Source: Minwuia sp.
Lineage (GTDB): Bacteria > Pseudomonadota > Alphaproteobacteria > Minwuiales > Minwuiaceae
Reading direction: 5' to 3'
DNA length: 45,855 nt
NCBI GenBank assembly: GCA_029213165.1
Contig: JARGNO010000008.1
Location: forward strand, 57,107 to 102,961
Each line of letters begins with the position of its first letter. Positions within the stretch are counted from its first letter, which is position 1. Under the pieces are notes generated by a model that saw only the letters and a program-made list of their open reading frames with translations, was not told the DNA's origin and searched no databases. The position numbers were made by a program, and so were the translations under genes. Below, in pieces: positions 9,801-36,951 of this stretch.

Positions 9801-10709
9801 ATGTTCTATGAATCCGGCGATGCGTTCCGTCGCGCGGCGCACAAGTCGATCACGCTTCTCGGCATGTCGGGCGTGGGCAAGACGATGCTGGCTGAACGTC
9901 TGCCGACGGATCTTTGGTTTCACTATTCGGCGGATTACCGGATCGGGACCAAGTATCTGGAAGAGGACATTCTGGACAACATCAAGCGTCAGGCGATGCA
10001 GGTCCCGTTCCTGCGCAACCTGCTGCTGTCGGATTCGATCTATATCTGCTCCAACATCACCGTACAGAATCTCGATCCGATCTCGACCTTTCTGGGCAAG
10101 ATCGGACGACCGACCCCGGACGGCATGGAGGAGGGCGGACTGAGCTACGCCGACTTCCGCGAGCGCCAGGACCTGCATGAGCAGGGTGAGATCAGTTCCA
10201 TGCATGATGTCGCGCGTTTCATGCGCAAGGCGCTGGACATCTACGGCTATCCGAACTTCATCAATGACGCTTCCGGCAGCATATGCGAGATCGTGGACCC
10301 GACCGGCGACGAAGAGGATCCGGTGTTGCATGCACTGGCCGAGCATACATTGCTGCTCTACATCCGCGCGGGCGAGGCAGACTACAACAGGATCCAGGCG
10401 GCGGCGATGCGCAATCCGAAACCACTGTTCTACCGCGATGATTTCCTGCGCTCGGTGATCCCGGAGTACCGGGTGGAGCAGGGGCTGTCCGCCGCGCCTG
10501 TCGAGGAGGTGGCGGACATTGACCCGGATGATTTCGTGAAATGGGTGTTTCCGAAGCTCTGGCAGCATCGCATCCCGCGCTACCAGGCCATCGCCGACCG
10601 CTATGGATATGTGGTCGAAGCGGCGGATGTCGCCGGGGTCCGTGACCATGACGATGTGATCAACCTGGTCGCGGAAGCGATTGACCGCCGTGTGCGGGCT
10701 GCGGCCTGA
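9801..10709 (+). CDS. P-loop ATPase/kinase-like protein of unknown function
   Basis: A 302-residue protein with an N-terminal Walker A motif GMSGVGKT (residues 21-28) directly after SITLL, as in small nucleotide kinases and shikimate-kinase-like P-loop proteins. No clear Walker B or recognised effector domain follows. The middle contains the striking INDASGSICEIVDPTGDEEDP and the C-terminal part a helical FVKWVFPKLWQHRIPRYQAIADRYGY. There is no signal peptide or membrane segment, so it should be cytoplasmic. It lies 21 bases upstream of the metA-type gene on the same strand, so the two are probably co-transcribed; whether it acts in methionine metabolism is unknown. Confidence 0.75.
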   Translation: MFYESGDAFRRAAHKSITLLGMSGVGKTMLAERLPTDLWFHYSADYRIGTKYLEEDILDNIKRQAMQVPFLRNLLLSDSIYICSNITVQNLDPISTFLGKIGRPTPDGMEEGGLSYADFRERQDLHEQGEISSMHDVARFMRKALDIYGYPNFINDASGSICEIVDPTGDEEDPVLHALAEHTLLLYIRAGEADYNRIQAAAMRNPKPLFYRDDFLRSVIPEYRVEQGLSAAPVEEVADIDPDDFVKWVFPKLWQHRIPRYQAIADRYGYVVEAADVAGVRDHDDVINLVAEAIDRRVRAAA

Positions 10710-10730: not shown

Positions 10731-11657
10731 ATGACACTTTTCCTGCCCGAAGGGTTGCCCTGTCTGTCGCAATTGCGTGACGAAGGGCTGAGCGTTGCCG
10801 AAGTTGCCTCACCGGATGAAGCGCTGGATGATGCCTTGCGGATCGGCATCCTCAACCTGATGCCGGACAAGATCGCGACCGAAGTGCAACTGATCAGGAT
10901 GCTTGCCCATGACACCCATGATGTCGCGGTCGTGCTGTTCGCGACCAGTGCCTACATGGATCGCGTGCGGCAGCCCGATTACCGATCTGCAAACACGCCC
11001 GTCGAGCATCTTCGGAAGTTCTACCGCAGCTTCGAAGACGTGCGGGACTTCGAATTTGACGGATTGATCATCACCGGTGCGCCGGTCGAACAGGTCCCCT
11101 TTGAAGAGGTGCCTTACTGGTCCGAGATGGTACAGATCCTGGACTGGATCGGACAGCGCGGTCTCGGCGTCTTCAGCATCTGCTGGGGTGCGCAGGCGGC
11201 ACTGAAGCACTATTATGAAATGCCGAAACATGTGTTGAGCGCCAAAAGGTTCGGGGTGTTTTCTCATGCAGTACTGGATAATGGAACCATGCTTGGGGGC
11301 GTGAGCAGACCCTTTGAAGTTCCGGTTTCACGACATTCCGAAACCCGTCGGGAGGATCTGCCCCGCGACACCGATCTGGTGGTCCTGGCGGAAAGCGCCG
11401 AGGCTGGAATCTGCCTGCTGGAGGACCCGGTGAAAGGTTGCGTCTACATGCTCAATCACTTCGAGTACGACGCGGACACCCTGAAGCGTGAATATGACCG
11501 GGACAAGAATTCAGGGGCACCGATCAACCTGCCGCTGAACTATTACCCGAACGATGATGACACCGCCGAACCGGTGGCGCGCTGGCAGCGGGATGGTCAG
11601 GCATTCTATGGCAATTGGCTCGACAGCATCGCAAGGCGTCGCGCCCGGCCTGTCTGA
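10731..11657 (+). CDS. metA: Homoserine O-acyltransferase, MetA family (acetyl-CoA use predicted)
   Basis: Activates homoserine for methionine synthesis by O-acylation in the cytoplasm. The 308 residues align end to end with E. coli MetA: NLMPDK with Lys47, nucleophile Cys151 in SICWGAQAA, and catalytic His243 and Glu245 in LNHFEYD. The residue after TGAPV is Glu120, matching Glu111 of Bacillus cereus MetA, which is reported to favour acetyl-CoA; succinyl-CoA enzymes such as E. coli's have Gly there. Homoserine O-acetyltransferase activity is therefore the better prediction despite the family name. No SAM riboswitch is possible in the 21-bp gap upstream; control would come from the promoter of the preceding gene. 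Confidence 0.93.
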   Translation: MTLFLPEGLPCLSQLRDEGLSVAEVASPDEALDDALRIGILNLMPDKIATEVQLIRMLAHDTHDVAVVLFATSAYMDRVRQPDYRSANTPVEHLRKFYRSFEDVRDFEFDGLIITGAPVEQVPFEEVPYWSEMVQILDWIGQRGLGVFSICWGAQAALKHYYEMPKHVLSAKRFGVFSHAVLDNGTMLGGVSRPFEVPVSRHSETRREDLPRDTDLVVLAESAEAGICLLEDPVKGCVYMLNHFEYDADTLKREYDRDKNSGAPINLPLNYYPNDDDTAEPVARWQRDGQAFYGNWLDSIARRRARPV

Positions 11658-11819: not shown

Positions 11820-14012
11820 GTGTCTGATATGTCGGCGACTGGCGGTGGAACGGGAAGGGCGAGGACAGTGCTGTCCCGCGCCCTGCTTGTGCTTGCGCTG
11901 ATCCTGTCGCCTGTCAGCAATGGTATTGGCCAATCGGCTGCTGTCGATGCGCCGCTGGTCCGCGTGCTGTCCGCCGACCTCGGCCCGATGGCGCGGCTGG
12001 AATTCTCCTGGCCCGGTCCATTCCATGCTGAAGTCAGCCGGAGCAGCCGCCAGTTGCTGCTGCAATTCGATCAGGAGTTCAACAGCCCGTTTGTCGGCGC
12101 GTTGCGCCAGCGGCTGGCAAACTGGGTTGTCGGCGTCGACAAGCGCGCGCGCTCCATCGCCATCACGACCCGCGAGGATGCCCAGTTTGCCGTTCAGATC
12201 GACGGCAACGTGCTGGCCGTGGAGATCACGGCCCAGCCTGCACGGCTCGATGGTGGTCCTGTCGGAGGCACGACGACGGCACTGACCCTGCAGCCACCAT
12301 CTGCCGCCGCGCGGGGAAATGATCGCAGCCGAACCGTGCAGCTTGTACCACCAGGCAACAGTTCACATGCGCGGGCACCTGCCGTTCCGGCGCCGGCACC
12401 GGACCGCGACCCGTTGACGGAGCGGCGACTGGATGAAGCGGCAGAGCGTGCCCTGAGACAGCTTCGGCTGAAAGGGCCGAGTGTCCTGCCGGAAGTTTCC
12501 AGTGCCACCGTCGAGCAGGGCAGCACCACCGTGACGGAGCTTGTCCTGCAACCGCGTGTCGAGACTTCGTCCGACGCGACCGGCGCGGATATCATGTTCC
12601 ATTGGCCGAAGTCGGTGACAATCGAGCCGGAGGCGAGTGCGCGCGAACTGCTGCTCAGGTTTGCGGAGCCGATCGACAGTGGCGTCGCCGATGGCATCGC
12701 CGAGCAACTGCCCGGCTGGCTCAGCAGTGTTTCCGTCGGCTATGACAGCATGCTCATTATTGCCACACGCCCGGTTAATTTCGGTTTGGGCCACGAAGGG
12801 TCCATCACGCGGATCACGCTGACAGGCTCGGGCGAGGAGGCCATCGACGGCAGGTCAGCGGAGGATCTGCGCCTGGATGTGCTGCGTGCGCGCCTGAAGG
12901 CACGACAGGGCAAGACAGATGCGGCGCGCTCCGACCTTCAGGACCTGCAGCAGACCGCGCCGGAGAATGCCGACGTGCTGGTCGAGCTTGCAACGCTGGA
13001 GGAGAGCGTCGGCTCATGGCGCCGCGCGGTCAGCCTGTATGACAGGGCACTGAACCTCGACCCGAACCGGCGCGAACTCGCTTCGGCCAGGCGTTCGCTG
13101 GACCGCGAGAACGGTTCACAGCTTCGCATCGACAGCGATATCCAGTTTGTCGAAGGCGGCGACACCCAGTGGATCACCGTGGGCAGCGGTCGGGTCATCA
13201 CCTCGATGACCACGGAGTTCGGTGTCCGGGTCGAGAACCGGTGGCTGGATGATGATCAGGTGCTGCGGGTCAATGGTGTGACAGAGGCCGTCAGCGAGAT
13301 GCATCAGCGTGGTGAGGTCTATGGCGCGGTCGAACTGGCGCCGGGCCACGATCTGGAGGGCACCCTGCTTGCCGGTGCCGGATCCCCCGGCGCAGCGCTG
13401 AGATACGATTACAGGACCCCGCAGACCCGGACCACCTTGCGCCTGACCCTGCATCGTTCGTACTGGGAACTGGTCGAGGGGATCGTGGATGGTGCGCTGC
13501 AGGACGCCATCGGCCTGCGCCACGAGCATCAGCTCAGCCGTCGCTGGTTCGCGGAGGCAGAAGCGAGCCTGAACCGGTTCGGCATCGACAACATCGAGAC
13601 AGCCGCAACCTCCTTCGACCTTGGCGGCGCCCTGCGTTACCGCGTGCCCTGGGAAGCAGCCGACCTGACGGTGGGCTACACGCTTAGTGGCCGCTACGTC
13701 GGCGGTATCGAGACGCGGCGCGACGCGAATGGCAATGCCTTCAATCCCTTGCCCCTGACCGATACCGAATTCCATTCGCTGGATCTCTCCCTGGGTGACG
13801 CGATCGGTTCGGATTTCCGTTACAACACCTTCCTCAGCCTGTCGGTCGACCGCATCGGCGACGGAATTGGTCCCAGCATCGGCGGCGAACTGTTCTGGGA
13901 GATCACCGAGGACTCGCAACTCGGCCTGCGCGCCGGTCATTCCCGGGTTTCGGGGCGTGGTGATGATGCGGTCTTCACGCGTTTCGGCGGTCATCTGCTG
14001 GTCAGGTTCTGA
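11820..14012 (+). CDS. PelB-like outer-membrane protein (AMIN-like domains, TPR, beta-barrel)
   Basis: First gene of the Pel exopolysaccharide operon. From the GTG start (AGAGG ten bases upstream) it encodes 730 residues: a signal peptide or anchor (about 13-40), an AMIN-like beta domain (about 46-124), a Pro/Ala-rich linker, a second similar beta domain (about 238-335), TPR-like helices (about 346-435, including GSWRRAVSLYDRALNLDPN), and a C-terminal beta-barrel (about 436-730) ending in aromatic VRF as outer-membrane proteins do. TPR plus barrel next to pelD matches PelB, the Pel export porin, but PelB of Pseudomonas is near 1190 residues with many more TPRs. The tandem AMIN-like domains may replace part of that scaffold. 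The stop is two bases from the pelD ATG. In-frame ATGs at 11757 and 11829 are less well placed. Confidence 0.7.
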   Translation: MSDMSATGGGTGRARTVLSRALLVLALILSPVSNGIGQSAAVDAPLVRVLSADLGPMARLEFSWPGPFHAEVSRSSRQLLLQFDQEFNSPFVGALRQRLANWVVGVDKRARSIAITTREDAQFAVQIDGNVLAVEITAQPARLDGGPVGGTTTALTLQPPSAAARGNDRSRTVQLVPPGNSSHARAPAVPAPAPDRDPLTERRLDEAAERALRQLRLKGPSVLPEVSSATVEQGSTTVTELVLQPRVETSSDATGADIMFHWPKSVTIEPEASARELLLRFAEPIDSGVADGIAEQLPGWLSSVSVGYDSMLIIATRPVNFGLGHEGSITRITLTGSGEEAIDGRSAEDLRLDVLRARLKARQGKTDAARSDLQDLQQTAPENADVLVELATLEESVGSWRRAVSLYDRALNLDPNRRELASARRSLDRENGSQLRIDSDIQFVEGGDTQWITVGSGRVITSMTTEFGVRVENRWLDDDQVLRVNGVTEAVSEMHQRGEVYGAVELAPGHDLEGTLLAGAGSPGAALRYDYRTPQTRTTLRLTLHRSYWELVEGIVDGALQDAIGLRHEHQLSRRWFAEAEASLNRFGIDNIETAATSFDLGGALRYRVPWEAADLTVGYTLSGRYVGGIETRRDANGNAFNPLPLTDTEFHSLDLSLGDAIGSDFRYNTFLSLSVDRIGDGIGPSIGGELFWEITEDSQLGLRAGHSRVSGRGDDAVFTRFGGHLLVRF

Positions 14013-14014
14013 AC

Positions 14015-15547
14015 ATGCAGTCCGAACAGGCCAGACAATTGCTCGGTTTCGGTGAGGAAGAAGCCTCACGCACGGTCGTGAAGCAGGAATCCCGCTTCCT
14101 GAAATCGGCACAGGGTGTCGCCTATCTCGAGATCACGCTGATCATGTTGCTGCTGGTCGGCATTGATTATCTGATCGGCGGCATTGACGGTTTTGCGACG
14201 GTCAATCCGAACCCCTACTGGATTCCGGTCATCCTCATTTCCGTCCAGTACGGCGTCTTCGAGGGGCTGGTTGCGGCCTTCCTTTCATCGCTGCTGTCTG
14301 TCGGGTCACGGCTGATCGGACCGATACTGGAAGACGCCATCGACAATGGCCTGGACGTGGCCATCAGCGATGCCATTGGCGGTGATTTCACATCCTTCAA
14401 CAGCGAGGACTACCTGATCGCCTGGCAATATGCTGCTGAACCGCTGCTGTGGCTGATCGTTGCCCTGATGGTGGGCCTGCTGCGGGAAAGGTTGCGGCAG
14501 CGCAATCAGCAGCTTGCACACCAGTTGAGCGAGACGTCGGAGCGCGAGCAGGTCCTGACCACGGCCTACGAGCAGTTGCTGCATACCAAGGAGCATCTGG
14601 AGGTTCGCGTCGCCGGCCAGTTGAAGACCGTCTTCACGCTCTACCAGGCGGCAAAGGCCATCGAGAAGCTCGGCCCCGGTGAGGTGCTGATCGGCATTGC
14701 CGATCTTGTCCGCGCGGTCATGCAGCCGACGAAGTTCTCGCTCTATCTGCTGAATGGCAGCGTGCTTGAGGCCGTCACCAATGATGGCTGGGACGATGAT
14801 GATACCTATGCACGGGTATTCGATTCCTCGACCGCGATCTTTCAGGAAGTGGTGGGACGGCGCCACATCATGTCCGTGGTCAACACGGCAGATGAACGGC
14901 TGCTGGCGGGGGAGGGCATCCTCGCGGGGCCCCTGACATCCGTCGATACCGGTGAAGTCGTCGGTATGTTGAAGATCGAGAAGCTCGGCTTCCTGGATCT
15001 GCATGTCTCGTCGCTGGAGAACTTCCGCATCCTGAGCGAATGGGTCGGTACGGCCTTCGCCAATGCCCGTCGGTTCCGCAAGGCGCAGGGCAACATGTAC
15101 TTCAATGACGACCGGACCCTGTTGAGCGATACCGTTTATCGCCAGCACTCGCGCTTCATGAAGACGCTGGGCGAGAATCTGGGGATCGATGTCGCCGCGA
15201 TCCAGTTGAAGGCAGAGGGGCTGGACGTACTGCACGAGAACCGCCGCCATGCGGTGATCAAGGCGCTGCGGGACGTGGTCGAACAGCACATGTCACCCAT
15301 GGTGCAGGCTTTCGAATACAAGCAGAACGGCCGCGAGTTCGCCCTGATCCTGCCAACCGTCAATGCGGAAAGGGATGGCGCTTCGGTGGCCGACAGCATT
15401 GCCAAGGCCGTGATGCACTATCTGGAACTGGCAGAGGTGGAAGGGGTCAGGATCTCCGCAACCCCGAAGGCGATCCATTCCACCCCGATCGAGCAGGACA
15501 CGGGAAGCAGCCCGAGCACGCCAATCCTTCGGGCAGGCCAGGGATGA
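14015..15547 (+). CDS. pelD: PelD-like regulator of Pel polysaccharide synthesis
   Basis: A 510-residue inner-membrane protein with the PelD layout: hydrophobic segments (about residues 35-56, 67-97, 140-156), a coiled-coil (about 157-200), a GAF domain (about 205-350) and a degenerate GGDEF domain (about 365-480). PelD normally binds c-di-GMP and switches on the PelDEFG synthase. Here the GGDEF position reads NGREF (438-442), so no cyclase activity is expected, and by-eye alignment puts MVQA where the RxxD inhibitory-site motif should be. C-di-GMP binding is thus doubtful. The start follows the PelB-like stop by two bases, and the stop overlaps pelE by ATGA, so translation is likely coupled. 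Confidence 0.88.
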   Translation: MQSEQARQLLGFGEEEASRTVVKQESRFLKSAQGVAYLEITLIMLLLVGIDYLIGGIDGFATVNPNPYWIPVILISVQYGVFEGLVAAFLSSLLSVGSRLIGPILEDAIDNGLDVAISDAIGGDFTSFNSEDYLIAWQYAAEPLLWLIVALMVGLLRERLRQRNQQLAHQLSETSEREQVLTTAYEQLLHTKEHLEVRVAGQLKTVFTLYQAAKAIEKLGPGEVLIGIADLVRAVMQPTKFSLYLLNGSVLEAVTNDGWDDDDTYARVFDSSTAIFQEVVGRRHIMSVVNTADERLLAGEGILAGPLTSVDTGEVVGMLKIEKLGFLDLHVSSLENFRILSEWVGTAFANARRFRKAQGNMYFNDDRTLLSDTVYRQHSRFMKTLGENLGIDVAAIQLKAEGLDVLHENRRHAVIKALRDVVEQHMSPMVQAFEYKQNGREFALILPTVNAERDGASVADSIAKAVMHYLELAEVEGVRISATPKAIHSTPIEQDTGSSPSTPILRAGQG

Positions 15548-16812
15548 GTGGTGCGGCACTTTCCGATGCAGCGCTTGCAGCGGAACTGGAACGGATCGAG
15601 GAGGAGCGGGAGCGTCGCAGGGCCACTGTCGGTGGCCGGGATCACGCCACGTTTTCCATCCTCGGGATCGCCATCTTCGCAACCCTCGCCGAAGCTGGTC
15701 TTCTGGTCCAACTGTACATGTCGTTCGGGCCAGCCTGGATCTCGGCGCTGATACATATCGTTGTGGTTGGCCTGCTGGGGCTCGGCGCGTGGCGAATTCG
15801 CCCCAATGGGGGGCATTCCCGTTATCTGGTCCTGCTGTCAGTGACCACAACATTCCTGGGCGTCTTCGGACCACTGGGGACGATGCTGGCAATGCTGTTG
15901 CACGTCTATTTCCGCAGGAACGCTACCCCGTTCGAGGAATGGTATGCGTCCCTGTTTCCCGATCACTTCGATGCACCGTCGGAGAGGCTCTACGAGATGC
16001 TGACCCGGGGCCTCGCCGACTCGGCGAAGCAGGAGAACGTGACGTCCTTCACGGATGTCCTCCAGTATGGCTCCATCGAGCAGAAGCGGGCCGTGATCTC
16101 CCTGCTGACCCGTGACTTCAAGCCGGAGTTCGCGCCAGCCCTGCAGTCCGCCCTCTCCGACGCCAATCCGGCGGTGCGGGTGCAGGCCGCAACGGCCGCC
16201 GCAAGCATCGAGAACGCATTTCTCGAACGGGCAATGGAGCTTGAGCAGGCGGCGAAGGCCGCGTCAGGTGATCATGAGGCCCAGCTTGAAGTTGCCCGCC
16301 ATTTCGACAATTACGCCTTCAGCGGAATCCTTGATGGCGACCGCCAGTCGGAAAACCGGCGCAAGGCGGAGGAATCCTATCGGGCGGCACTGGGTCTGGA
16401 ACCGACACTGGCCGATGCCCTGCTTGGCGTCGGTCGGCTGATGGTACGGACCGGGCGTCTGGAGGAGGCTGCGCGATGGTTCGAGGCCGGTTTCGCCAAG
16501 GGTATCCTGCGACCGAGCGAGCTTGCCTGGTACATGGAGGCAGTCTTCCGCCTGGGCGACTTTGACAGGCTGCGCTATGCCGTGGCCGGTTTCGGCGATG
16601 ACCTGCTGGCCGACACCGCAATCAGTGACCGCCTGCGGGACGTGATCCTGGCCTGGCAGGGCGTGGATCCGACGCGGGATCTGGAAGAGGCCGAGCGACA
16701 GGCCGTTTCCCCGGCGGGGCATGTGACCGGCACGTCGCCGGACAATGTACCCGATGATGCAGGACTGACGCCGACGACAGGGGAGGCTCTGGTACCGAAT
16801 GGCGCGCGTTGA
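15544..16812 (+). CDS. pelE: PelE-like membrane/TPR protein
   Basis: A 422-residue inner-membrane protein of the Pel synthase complex. Seen: a charged N-terminal helix (RIEEERERRR), three membrane segments (about residues 37-59, 62-83, 94-122), then a soluble part with HEAT-like helices (about 180-225) and TPR-like repeats (about 235-350, including KAEESYRAALGLEPTLADALLGVGRL and GRLEEAARWFEAGF). PelE is thought to scaffold PelD and PelF at the membrane. Pseudomonas PelE is shorter (about 330), so this copy has an enlarged helical domain. The gene overlaps pelD by four bases and pelF by 14. Identification rests on architecture and on its place between pelD and pelF. Confidence 0.85.
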   Translation: MSGAALSDAALAAELERIEEERERRRATVGGRDHATFSILGIAIFATLAEAGLLVQLYMSFGPAWISALIHIVVVGLLGLGAWRIRPNGGHSRYLVLLSVTTTFLGVFGPLGTMLAMLLHVYFRRNATPFEEWYASLFPDHFDAPSERLYEMLTRGLADSAKQENVTSFTDVLQYGSIEQKRAVISLLTRDFKPEFAPALQSALSDANPAVRVQAATAAASIENAFLERAMELEQAAKAASGDHEAQLEVARHFDNYAFSGILDGDRQSENRRKAEESYRAALGLEPTLADALLGVGRLMVRTGRLEEAARWFEAGFAKGILRPSELAWYMEAVFRLGDFDRLRYAVAGFGDDLLADTAISDRLRDVILAWQGVDPTRDLEEAERQAVSPAGHVTGTSPDNVPDDAGLTPTTGEALVPNGAR

Positions 16813-18337
16813 TCATTTCGAACCCGTTGATGTCTGCCTGGTCCTGGAGGGAACCTACCCCTATGTCGCCGGCGGTGTGTCGAGCTGGGTGCATGACCTG
16901 GTGGGCGCGCAGAGTGATCTGACCTTTCACATCGTCAGCCTGATGCCCGGCGAGAAACCGCCAGAGCGGCGTTATGAAGTGCCGGACAATGTAAGGGGCA
17001 TCAACCATGTGTTCCTGCAGAAGATGCCTTCCGGCAAGGGCAGGGTGAAACGACTGAAGAAGCACCTGAGCGACATGGAACCGGCGCTGAAGTCCATGCA
17101 GGCATCGGGCGATCTCAGTGATGTTGCGCATCTGCTGCAGACACTCGCCCCCAATCGGGAAGCTTTCGGTCGCGAGTCACTGCTGAATTCCGAGCCTGCC
17201 TGGCAGATGCTGCTGCGGATGTACAAGGAGGACATGCCCGAAAGCTCCTTCCTCGACTATTTCTGGACCTGGCGTTCGCTGCTGGGGGGGCTGTTCAACA
17301 TCCTGCTGTCACCGATGCCGGAGGCGAAGGTGTTCCATACCGTCTCGACCGGCTATGCAGGGCTGTTCGCGGCGCGGGCGAAGCTGGAGACCGGGCGACC
17401 GGTGCTGCTGACCGAGCATGGCATCTACACCAATGAACGCCGCATCGAGATCGCCATGGCCGACTGGCTCTACGAGGCACCGGGCGGCAGTCTGGGTCTG
17501 GAGAAGCCGAAGCGGGACCTGAAGGATCTCTGGATCGATACCTTCGTGGCCTACAGCCGCTGCTGCTATCAGGCCTGTGACCAGATCATCACCCTCTATA
17601 CGGGCAATCAGGACCTGCAGCGGCGTGATGGCGCGGCGGAGGAACTGCTGCGCATCATCCCCAACGGCGTGGACTACGAGAAGTATTCGAAGGTCGAGCG
17701 GACACCGAACGACCGGCCGACGATTGCCCTTATCGGGCGCGTTGTTCCGATCAAGGACGTCAAGACCTACATCCGCGCCGTCGCCCTGCTGCGGCGGGAC
17801 GTTCCCAACGTCAAGGCACTGATGATGGGCCCCACGGACGAGGACGAGGACTATTACCGCGAGTGCCTGCAGATGGTTGACCATCTGGATCTGAAGGAGA
17901 ACTTCATCTTCACCGGTCGCGTTCAGTTGACCGAGTATCTGGGCCAGGTGGATGTCATGGTGCTGACCTCCATCTCGGAGGCGCAGCCGCTCGTCATCCT
18001 GGAAGGCGGTGCGGCAGGTATCCCGACCGTTTCGACCGATGTGGGCGCCTGTCGCGACATGCTGTTCGGCATGCCGCACGAGGATCCGCCGCTGGGCACG
18101 GGCGGTGCCATCACGCCGCTCTCCAACCCCGCCGAGACCGCGAAGGAACTCGCGGCGCTGATCAAGGATCCGGCCTACATGGCCAGCGCCAGGAAGGCGA
18201 TCAAGGAACGCGTGCGCAAGTACTACAACAAGCTGGAGATCGACCGGATCTACCACGAACTCTACGTGACCTTCATTGCGCATGAGACAATGCCCGAGGA
18301 AGAACGCGTGAAACGCGCCGAGCAGGAGGCCGCCTGA
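16799..18337 (+). CDS. pelF: GT4 family glycosyltransferase PelF
   Basis: A 512-residue cytoplasmic GT-B glycosyltransferase that polymerises the Pel polysaccharide from a UDP-sugar. The PelF hallmark EGTYPYVAGGVSSWVHDLV (residues 17-35) is intact, as are LLTEHGIYTNERRIEI (about 203-218), IPNGVD (287-292), the nucleotide-binding ALIGRVVPIKDVKTYI (310-325) and the EX7E motif with Glu394 and Glu402 in SEAQPLVILEGG. Length and motifs fit a functional enzyme. It starts 14 bases before the pelE stop with GGGGAGG upstream, and its stop overlaps the pelG ATG (TGATG). This is the most securely recognised member of the operon. Confidence 0.97.
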   Translation: MARVDHFEPVDVCLVLEGTYPYVAGGVSSWVHDLVGAQSDLTFHIVSLMPGEKPPERRYEVPDNVRGINHVFLQKMPSGKGRVKRLKKHLSDMEPALKSMQASGDLSDVAHLLQTLAPNREAFGRESLLNSEPAWQMLLRMYKEDMPESSFLDYFWTWRSLLGGLFNILLSPMPEAKVFHTVSTGYAGLFAARAKLETGRPVLLTEHGIYTNERRIEIAMADWLYEAPGGSLGLEKPKRDLKDLWIDTFVAYSRCCYQACDQIITLYTGNQDLQRRDGAAEELLRIIPNGVDYEKYSKVERTPNDRPTIALIGRVVPIKDVKTYIRAVALLRRDVPNVKALMMGPTDEDEDYYRECLQMVDHLDLKENFIFTGRVQLTEYLGQVDVMVLTSISEAQPLVILEGGAAGIPTVSTDVGACRDMLFGMPHEDPPLGTGGAITPLSNPAETAKELAALIKDPAYMASARKAIKERVRKYYNKLEIDRIYHELYVTFIAHETMPEEERVKRAEQEAA

Positions 18338-19713
18338 TGGCCGGTATCGGATTCGCGCTGCGCCGCCTGACGGATCGCGATGACCTGCTTGGTATCGTCC
18401 AGGGTTATGCGCATTCGACCATCGTCTCGTCGGGGCCGTGGCTGTTCACGATCCTTGCCGTCGGCTCGATCAACCTCTTCGGGATCTATTTCACGGACCT
18501 GGAAGAGCTGATCTCCTTCCGGATCGTGCTGATATACAATTTTGCCTTCAGTCTGGCTTTCTCCGGGCCGATCCTGCTGGTGGCTACCCGGTATCTGGCC
18601 GACATGATCTTCAAGAAGGCGGTGATCGAGGCACCGGGGATGCTGATCGCGGCCCTGTTCATGCTGCTCGGCACGCAGGCCTTCATTGTTGTGCCGTTCT
18701 ATGTCTTCGTCGTCGATATTCCGCCGCTGATCATTGCGGGGGCGCTGGTGAACTACTTCCTGGTCACCGCCATCTGGATGGTGAACGTCTTCCTGACGGC
18801 GCTGAAGGATTATCGCTCCATTACCATGGCCTTCTTTTTCGGGATGGCTGCTGGCGGCGCGATGGGGCTGTTCCTGGCCGCGGATTTCGGCGCATTCGGT
18901 ATTCTCATCGGCTTCAACTTCGGGCTTGGCCTGATCTTCTTCGCGCTGGTGGCCCGGGTCTTTGCGGAATACCCCTACCGCATCACGCGCCCGTTCGCGT
19001 TCCTGGCCTATTTTCGCAAGTACTGGGATTTGGCGCTGGCCGGACTGATCTACAATCTGGCGATCTGGGTCGACAAGTGGGTGATGTGGTGCGCGCCGGA
19101 GCGGGAGGTGCTGGAAAGCGGCTTCGTTTCCTACCCGATCTATGACGGCGCCATGTTCCTGGCCTATCTGACCATCGTGCCCGCAATGGCGGTGTTCATC
19201 GTCAACATCGAGACGCGCTTCTTCGAGCACTACCAGCGGTTCTATCGCGACATCGAGCATCACGCGAACTACGAGCGGATCGAGGAGAACCACCAGAACC
19301 TGATCGACGCCCTGCTGGCCGCGTCCCGCAACGTGATCGTGCTGCAGTTCTGTCTGTGTGTGACAGCCATTCTGGTGGCGGGCCCACTGTTCGAGGCCGT
19401 TGGCATTCCGGCACTGCAACTGGGCATCTTCCGCTTCGGCGTGCTGGGCGCCCTGTTCCATGTGCTGCTGATGTTCGTCGGGATCGTGCTGGCCTACTTC
19501 GACCTTCGCAAGGTGATGCTGGGAGTGCAGGTGCTCTATCTGCTGACCAATGGACTCTTCACCTGGATCACGATGGAACTGGGTTTCCCCTACTACGGCT
19601 ACGGATATTTCATGGCCTCGCTGCTGACCTTCCTGATCGCTTATGGCGTCTGCGCCTGGCATGTCGGCCGGTTGCCGTTCCTGACCTTTGTCCGCAACAA
19701 CGCGTCGGTGTAG
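18337..19713 (+). CDS. pelG: Pel polysaccharide flippase-like membrane protein PelG
   Basis: A 458-residue polytopic inner-membrane protein with about 12 hydrophobic segments, of the MOP/MATE-like exporter superfamily. It is the presumed channel that moves the Pel chain across the inner membrane with PelDEF. The family start MAGIGFALRRL is present, followed by YAHSTIVSSGPWLFTI, and Lys/Trp-rich IWVDKWVMWCAPE in the middle. It overlaps pelF by one base. The minus strand opposite is open for over 500 codons, a by-product of the codon bias rather than a gene. The operon may continue into the GFA-fold gene 11 bases downstream. Confidence 0.96.
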   Translation: MAGIGFALRRLTDRDDLLGIVQGYAHSTIVSSGPWLFTILAVGSINLFGIYFTDLEELISFRIVLIYNFAFSLAFSGPILLVATRYLADMIFKKAVIEAPGMLIAALFMLLGTQAFIVVPFYVFVVDIPPLIIAGALVNYFLVTAIWMVNVFLTALKDYRSITMAFFFGMAAGGAMGLFLAADFGAFGILIGFNFGLGLIFFALVARVFAEYPYRITRPFAFLAYFRKYWDLALAGLIYNLAIWVDKWVMWCAPEREVLESGFVSYPIYDGAMFLAYLTIVPAMAVFIVNIETRFFEHYQRFYRDIEHHANYERIEENHQNLIDALLAASRNVIVLQFCLCVTAILVAGPLFEAVGIPALQLGIFRFGVLGALFHVLLMFVGIVLAYFDLRKVMLGVQVLYLLTNGLFTWITMELGFPYYGYGYFMASLLTFLIAYGVCAWHVGRLPFLTFVRNNASV

Positions 19714-36012: not shown

Positions 36013-36951
36013 ATGTACTGGTTGCGGACGAGGCTGCCTCTTATGGTGCTCGCGATGGGAATGGTAATGGCAAGTGGTACCGCGCGGGCTGACCTTTCGG
36101 GAGTGCGCCATTTCACCTATTGGCTGGCCAATCCCGGTCCGGCCCTGATAGCGGCCAGTGGTTTCGACATGGCCGTGGTCGATTATTCCCGCGACGGATC
36201 AGGCGCCGAGGCTTTCAGCCGTGACGACATTGCCCTGATGCAGCAGAAACCCGATGGCGAACGCCGGATCGTGCTGTCGTATCTGTCGGTAGGGGAGGCG
36301 GAGGATTACCGCTACTACTGGAAGCCGGAGTGGTCCAGCAAGGCACCTTCATGGCTGGAGGCGGTGAACCCTGACTGGCCGGGCAACTTCAAGGTCCGCT
36401 ACTGGGATCCCAACTGGAAACGGATCATCTTCGGCAGCCCGGACGCATATCTGGACCGGATCATCGCCGCCGGATTCGATGGGGTCTACCTCGATATCAT
36501 CGACGCCTACTGGTACTTTCAGGAGAAGGGGCGAAAGACCGCTGCAAAGGAAATGACGGATTTCGTCATGGAACTGGCCGCCTATGCCCGCAGGAAGGTG
36601 CCTGGCTTCCGCATCGTGCCGCAGAACGCCGAAGACCTGATGGTCGATCCCGCATATCTGGCCATGGTCGATGGTCTGGGGAAGGAAGACGCCTTCTTCG
36701 GCTGGGACGGCGATGGCGTGCCGAATGCCGATGAGTCCACCGCCTGGATCATGCAGCATCTCAAACTGATCACGGATGCTGGCAAGCCTGTCTTCCTGAT
36801 CGAATATCCGTCCGATCCGGAACGTATTCGGGAAGCCTACCGGAAAGGCCGGGACGCGGGCCTGATTCCCTATTCCACGGTCAGGGCACTTGACCGCATG
36901 GTGGTCAATCCCGGGTTTGATCCGCAGGTGCCGGGTCTGTTGCAGCGTTAG
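36013..36951 (+). CDS. Secreted GH114-type glycoside hydrolase (endo-alpha-1,4-polygalactosaminidase-like)
   Basis: A 312-residue exported TIM-barrel protein of the GH114/TM1410 type. The signal peptide spans residues 1-26 with cleavage at ARA-D. Barrel motifs and acidic residues expected near the active site: VVDYSRDG (Asp57), LSYLSVGEAEDYRYYW (Glu95), RYWDPNW, FDGVYLDIIDAYWYF (Asp161, Asp164) and VPQNAEDL. GH114 enzymes cut galactosaminogalactan-type polymers, and the hydrolase domain of PelA is a distant relative. A link to the pel operon in this window is therefore worth testing, although the gene lies 16 kb away beside lipid A genes. A strong GGAGGAGAGG precedes the ATG. Its 3' end overlaps lpxK by 47 bases on the opposite strand. 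Confidence 0.87.
   Translation: MYWLRTRLPLMVLAMGMVMASGTARADLSGVRHFTYWLANPGPALIAASGFDMAVVDYSRDGSGAEAFSRDDIALMQQKPDGERRIVLSYLSVGEAEDYRYYWKPEWSSKAPSWLEAVNPDWPGNFKVRYWDPNWKRIIFGSPDAYLDRIIAAGFDGVYLDIIDAYWYFQEKGRKTAAKEMTDFVMELAAYARRKVPGFRIVPQNAEDLMVDPAYLAMVDGLGKEDAFFGWDGDGVPNADESTAWIMQHLKLITDAGKPVFLIEYPSDPERIREAYRKGRDAGLIPYSTVRALDRMVVNPGFDPQVPGLLQR

Follow-up and report, generated by a model that had tools for sequence, protein, structure and literature searches.

A split pel locus in Minwuia: probable part of a dispersed Pel-type system without PelC

The nearest counterparts of the locus studied here are the pelABCDEFG operon of Pseudomonas aeruginosa, the pelDEA(DA)FG operon of Bacillus cereus, the contiguous PelC-less operons of alphaproteobacteria and acidobacteria that this analysis brought up, and the glycosidases of family GH191. 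The P. aeruginosa PelD residues R367 and D370 (the RxxD motif) are required for cyclic di-GMP (c-di-GMP) binding and for the pellicle, according to passages of PMC2170427; Streptococcus PelD without a GGDEF domain is already known (text passages of PMC12345266).

We analysed a window of 45,855 nucleotides (the whole stretch of DNA under study) from a genome of the genus Minwuia (G000; 4.12 Mb, 120 contigs, 99.86% complete). The window carries a run of five pel genes, with neither pelA nor pelC between them (11820-19713). The sequences suggest that this run quite probably belongs to a Pel-type system that is complete but has its pieces in separate places of the genome: pelB(barrel)-pelD-pelE-pelF-pelG in the window, a PelA-type deacetylase followed by a PelB tetratricopeptide repeat (TPR) scaffold on contig C66, and probably a GH191-type glycosidase at 36013-36951 of the window. 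The features of the pel run are as follows.

11829-14012, + strand: PelB-like outer-membrane part with a signal peptide, open reading frame (ORF) with alternative starts GTG 11820 and TTG 11757
~11955-12233 and ~12555-12827, + strand: two beta domains of PelB (model)
12858-13112, + strand: short TPR of PelB, five TPR-type helices (model)
from ~13119, + strand: 16-stranded barrel of PelB (model)
14015-15547, + strand: PelD with transmembrane helices, GAF and a degenerate GGDEF
15293-15304, + strand: PelD residues 427-430, SPMV replacing RxxD by alignment; the modelled protein retains the GGDEF fold
15544-16812, + strand: PelE, by position, identity to PelE-position genes and weak TPR/HEAT-like matches
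16799-18337, + strand: PelF glycosyltransferase, NCBIfam PelF NF038011 at 452.5 bits (cut-off 100) and PF11997
18337-19713, + strand: PelG transporter, PF16933 at 415.6 bits (cut-off 29)

All five ORFs are open and lie on one strand; 2 bp separate PelB from PelD, and the remaining neighbours overlap. This bears out the preliminary description of the window, in which PelD, PelE, PelF and PelG were recognisable and overlapped or nearly touched behind a PelB-like gene; the PelF and PelG profiles and the PelB and PelD models agree. The PelF and PelG pair passed the curated profile cut-offs, and PelG is single-copy, no second pelG being found in the genome by profile search. PelE is 38-42% identical to the gene in the same position in four of the alphaproteobacterial operons L047-L051 and 31% identical in the fifth. 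PF16963 was silent in this genome and in every control and is therefore uninformative. A promoter and terminator scan gave values below the shuffled mean for both.

PelB (by AlphaFold) and PelD were modelled from alignments of 31 and 33 rows because sequence-only searches gave no informative match to the P. aeruginosa structures. By sequence, PelB had TPR matches only in the PDB; the best PDB match of its model (pLDDT 81) was PelB of the PelBC structure 9h80 (9h80_M, E 3.3e-16; TM score 0.76 by target length, 0.43 by query length), followed by BcsC. For PelD, the single-sequence PDB search gave no match and an 8-row profile gave GGDEF proteins only, and the model retrieved a diguanylate cyclase at ranks 1-2 and P. 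aeruginosa PelD structures at ranks 3-6 (E ~6e-7), with low TM scores that we ascribe to domain placement.

Deacetylase and TPR profiles built from other pel loci were run on 19 whole genomes. They detected a PelA-type deacetylase in the window's own genome (G000:C66:49910-52087, a 758-residue frame, 821 bits) and in 14 of the 19 genomes overall, including all seven Minwuia genomes compared (G000 and six congeners, G001-G006); the copy of G005, an assembly of 660 contigs with 89% completeness, is cut by a contig end. The own deacetylase matches the PelA structure 9cgy at E 5.4e-58 and keeps the metal-site motifs HIDGDG and HTxSHPF, and the ~750-residue deacetylase of alphaproteobacterial pel operons matches the same structure at E 2.5e-56. 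Directly after it on C66 the profile of other pel loci found a PelB TPR scaffold of 1614 residues, which occurs in six of the seven Minwuia genomes (G005 is the miss) and had no PDB match at 1e-3. Both the PelB barrel and its TPR scaffold are present in this genome, as two genes.

The preliminary description reported pelA and pelC as absent, which is correct at the locus; across the genome the PelA functions were found, on C66 and probably in the window, and PelC was not, according to the profiles. Loss of the PelA deacetylase from this genome is ruled out by the C66 gene. It was also proposed that the missing functions are supplied elsewhere, which holds for the deacetylase and probably for the hydrolase (the GH191-type gene 16 kb downstream of the pel run), not for PelC. 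The other proposal was a loss of PelA and PelC from the lineage, with export of an unmodified or differently modified polymer through a reduced apparatus. The lack of pelA and pelC beside the window's pel genes, and of a detectable PelC in the genome, would agree with such a loss, but the intact deacetylase and TPR genes on C66 and the GH191-type gene in the window do not, and for the deacetylase the contradiction is already in the sequence. The idea is unsupported here because the deacetylase is intact with its metal-site motifs, and we consider this loss extremely unlikely.

A deacetylase profile seeded from alphaproteobacteria found no PelA-type deacetylase in seven of seven genomes of Caldimonas, Roseomonas relatives and Microvirga (L167, L173, L178, L188, L190, L202, L206). 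In all seven, PelD lacks either RxxD or the GGDEF part, and the four that could be scored (L167, L173, L190, L202) lack PelC; the unmodified-polymer idea might apply in those genomes. Over 14 genomes the same profile found none in ten (also L171, L199 and L203, the last two being small metagenome-assembled genomes, MAGs) and matched L135, L137, L175 and L176. Profile searches of the L171 genome, an unclassified alphaproteobacterial MAG, found neither PF03537 nor the deacetylase.

The position of the break between the two parts of the cluster was located by comparison with the congeners, in which two upstream neighbours of the pel run take part.

9801-10709, + strand: P-loop gene, not pel-specific
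10731-11657, + strand: metA, not pel-specific

G003 and G006 have the contiguous order MFS / deacetylase-TPR-P-loop-metA-PelB-D-E-F-G. This one-operon arrangement is absent from the own genome: G000, G001, G002 and G004 have MFS / deacetylase-TPR at one site and P-loop-metA-PelB-D-E-F-G at another, with a common break point between the TPR and P-loop genes (G005 is too fragmented for synteny). An assembly artefact is ruled out as the cause of the split: the G002 assembly is one contig, on which the two parts lie at 1.20-1.21 Mb and 4.13 Mb. Five other alphaproteobacteria carry one run of a glycosidase (~290 residues), deacetylase (~750 residues), TPR (~1040 residues), barrel, D, E, F and G, with PelC before D in two of the five. 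Since these outgroup operons are contiguous, contiguity is probably ancestral, and a single break between the TPR and P-loop genes would be the simplest history. The operon was split, not stripped.

The genes outside the pel run had been called unrelated to it. A functional unrelatedness of metA is plausible; the P-loop gene and metA nevertheless stand inside the pel cluster of two congeners (L054 5476-7319, L056 13194-15037). Compared with the window, metA of these two is only 55% identical and the P-loop protein 78%, a hint of metA replacement. We rejected a pel role for the P-loop gene because 3 of the 53 genomes outside Minwuia carry it and none of the three has PelG.

The proposed third piece is the following gene.

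36013-36951, + strand: GH114/GH191 (TM1410-type) glycosidase, PF03537 at 98 bits, Sec-like signal peptide; may take the place of the PelA hydrolase domain

It is the single PF03537 match in the genome, where no GH166-type PelA hydrolase was found. Its similarity to TM1410 (E 5e-52, 272 residues aligned) may be compared with that to the PelA hydrolase (E 5e-7), and its conserved D161 and E225 match the D and E positions of TM1410. Passages of PMC12054363 place TM1410 in the new family GH191, with D as the nucleophile and E as the acid/base, and from this and the conservation we infer a catalytic role for D161 and E225; they also report that the specificity of Env-GH191 agrees with the preference of GH166 (PelA) for partly deacetylated stretches. 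Of 60 genomes, 11 have a PF03537 match, and exactly these 11, the own genome among them, have PelG. In an overlapping sample of 289 genomes of the class, both were found in 15, PelG only in 1 (G121), PF03537 only in 6 and neither in 267 (Fisher p 2e-19, uncorrected for kinship). A glycosidase tree of 48 rows (TM1410 and the deduplicated remainder of 60 hits; L036 is the only one of seven high-scoring GH114 proteins of the 289-genome sample that entered it) contains a clade of 15 (97/94) with the window protein, TM1410, six other Minwuia proteins, G072 and G035 (both with PelG), three Nitrospinota proteins and the long branches L159 and L046. The closely related Nitrospinota loci L165, L174 and L179 have a TM1410/GH191-type gene directly after pelG. 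We suggest that the window glycosidase is probably a stand-in for the PelA hydrolase.

Several observations weigh against this assignment. In none of the seven Minwuia genomes does the glycosidase adjoin the pel genes: the distance is 16-20 kb in G000 and G002 and 2 Mb in G006, and in the remaining genomes the gene is on another contig. Its neighbour is an Hpt gene in all six genomes in which that flank is covered. The clade member L046 comes from a genome without PelG (G291), and TmGH191 (TM1410) itself had no activity or binding in the passages of PMC12054363. Because there is no pel adjacency in Minwuia, the case for a Pel role is made by co-occurrence, fold class and linkage in a different phylum. 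A scavenging or interspecies enzyme unrelated to the own Pel, leaving Minwuia without a PelA-type hydrolase, would agree with this distance, with the PelG-less clade member and with the position of the contiguous-operon hydrolases outside the TM1410 clade; it is opposed by the shared occurrence with PelG in the 60 genomes and by the Nitrospinota linkage, and we regard it as possible though not favoured.

In the dispersed system that we propose, PelD, PelE, PelF and PelG would polymerise an alpha-1,4 N-acetylgalactosamine (GalNAc) polymer and pass it across the inner membrane, and the separate deacetylase would remove part of its acetyl groups in the periplasm. Guided by the long TPR protein, the polymer would be exported through the barrel without a PelC ring, and the GH191 enzyme would trim it. 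Synthesis may be gated by a signal other than c-di-GMP, or by none, PelD having kept its fold and lost RxxD.

A 4-row PelC profile run on 22 genomes gave strong matches in five (one cut by a contig end) and in none of the seven Minwuia; at E<=10 it found nothing in G000 and, in the congeners, E 0.04 at best (G006). A 16-row profile at E<=1 found nothing in G000 and E 0.44-0.79 in four congeners, the three positive controls giving 1e-61 to 1e-76 with two of them in the profile (the sequences of the controls G059 and G121 are among the profile rows). Weak PelC-like matches in G008 and G052 (391- and 812-residue frames) were read as other CsgG-like proteins and left uncounted. The loss of PelC from the own genome is supported as far as the profiles reach. 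The extra PelB beta domain was considered as a PelC replacement and is unsupported, PelC-bearing loci also aligning over one such domain.

A PelC too diverged for the profiles, or another CsgG/LpoB-like lipoprotein in its place, is a less probable explanation that still deserves attention. PelC is small and divergent, the alphaproteobacterial PelC of L048 scores as CsgG/LpoB-like, and the P. aeruginosa PelC ring is called essential in passages of PMC12141448. The positive controls belong to the profile rows or resemble them closely, which limits what they say about the power to detect a far-diverged PelC, and the weak congener matches may point the same way. These matches, however, cover the profile only in part and have no counterpart in G000, which is empty at both thresholds and has only 2 bp between pelB and pelD.

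The lack of PelC is not special to the Minwuia lineage. The named pel loci, an uneven sample of the best 80 of 254 to an alphaproteobacterial PelF query, were annotated and scored with profile cut-offs of our own choice. PelC could be scored in 62 loci, the window and 61 named loci with barrel and PelD resolved in that order (19 were not); it was present between pelB and pelD in 22 and absent in 40, five of the latter being Minwuia-type. The barrel and PelD domain matches are separated by <=180 bp in 37 of these 40. PelC is found in 25 of the 80 named loci when the unscored L157, L171 and L175 are counted. The PelC-less loci include Magnetococcales (one of two), Acidobacteria, Telmatospirillum, Roseomonas relatives, some Azospirillum and one Rickettsiales MAG. 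An earlier pel survey used PelC as a query (text passages of PMC7112168), to which PelC-less loci would be invisible; our literature search, made on text passages, found no printed statement of PelC-less Gram-negative pel loci.

Other arrangements around PelC were seen among the named loci. Five gammaproteobacterial/Chromatiales MAG loci (L193, L196, L199, L201, L208) have two tandem PelC-like genes between pelB and pelD, and in the unclassified alphaproteobacterial MAG locus L175 pelD and pelE precede the hydrolase, TPR, barrel and PelC. The Nitrospinota loci L165, L174 and L179 have 389-557 bp between the barrel and PelD matches, which may hide an unrecognised gene.

The seven distinct Minwuia-type PelD proteins (the window, G001, G002, G003, G004, G006 and the near relative L133) all have SPMV or SPVV in the position of RxxD. 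Among 68 PelD proteins (the window and 67 named loci), 41 have RxxD, 15 have other letters (five of them Minwuia-type) and 12 have no residues there, the GGDEF part of these 12 being apparently missing. The counterpart of the second arginine, P. aeruginosa R402, was not mapped with confidence. With RxxD lost, the usual c-di-GMP switch is probably gone, and Minwuia PelD is probably c-di-GMP-blind though its modelled GGDEF fold is kept.

The lost c-di-GMP site and the missing PelC could also mean decay, which weighs against a working system, and with the split locus they would suit a relic decaying after rearrangement. Against decay, all pel ORFs of the window are open, the G002 and G001 counterparts of PelF and PelG show identities of 95.7-96.9% and 95.6-98.5%, and the more distant G003, G004 and G006 retain the same pel genes; a relic is therefore very unlikely.

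Returning to the dispersed system, we tentatively suggest, with less than even confidence, that the Pel-type polymer of Minwuia is deacetylated and exported without PelC, that its PelD retains the fold and is blind to c-di-GMP, and that the genes for synthesis/export, modification/scaffold and trimming lie in three places, so that these steps could come under independent control. More broadly, among relatives of this PelF, Gram-negative exporters without PelC would outnumber those with it and would have escaped PelC-query surveys. A genome may encode pelA even where its pel cluster has none alongside, so that surveys based on operons can misjudge loci of this kind. Since PelC is often lacking from Gram-negative loci that are otherwise complete, it becomes a testable question how the barrel couples to the scaffold without the ring on which P. 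aeruginosa depends; the Minwuia protein is a natural PelD that is probably c-di-GMP-blind yet retains the GGDEF fold.

Fission of pelB, pelA rearrangement and gain or loss of loci have already been described in other taxa (PMC7112194), in whose text passages neither chromosomal dispersal of pel genes nor this genus was found. The contiguous PelC-less operons L137, L139, L150 and L166 share with Minwuia the hydrolase, deacetylase, TPR, barrel, D, E, F and G, and differ in being contiguous and in having hydrolases of a non-TM1410 clade; PelD keeps RxxD in L137, L139 and L166 and is without the GGDEF part in L150. TM1410 and Env-GH191 resemble the window glycosidase in sequence similarity and in the D and E positions. 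B. cereus, according to passages of PMC7112168, likewise has separate deacetylase and hydrolase genes and no PelC; unlike Minwuia it is Gram-positive, without the outer-membrane part, and its PelD keeps RxxD and binds c-di-GMP. With P. aeruginosa, Minwuia shares homologues of PelD, PelE, PelF, PelG, the PelB barrel (9h80) and the PelA deacetylase (9cgy), whereas its PelA functions are in separate dispersed genes, its PelB is two genes without a PelC, its PelD is without RxxD and its hydrolase is GH191-type instead of GH166-type.

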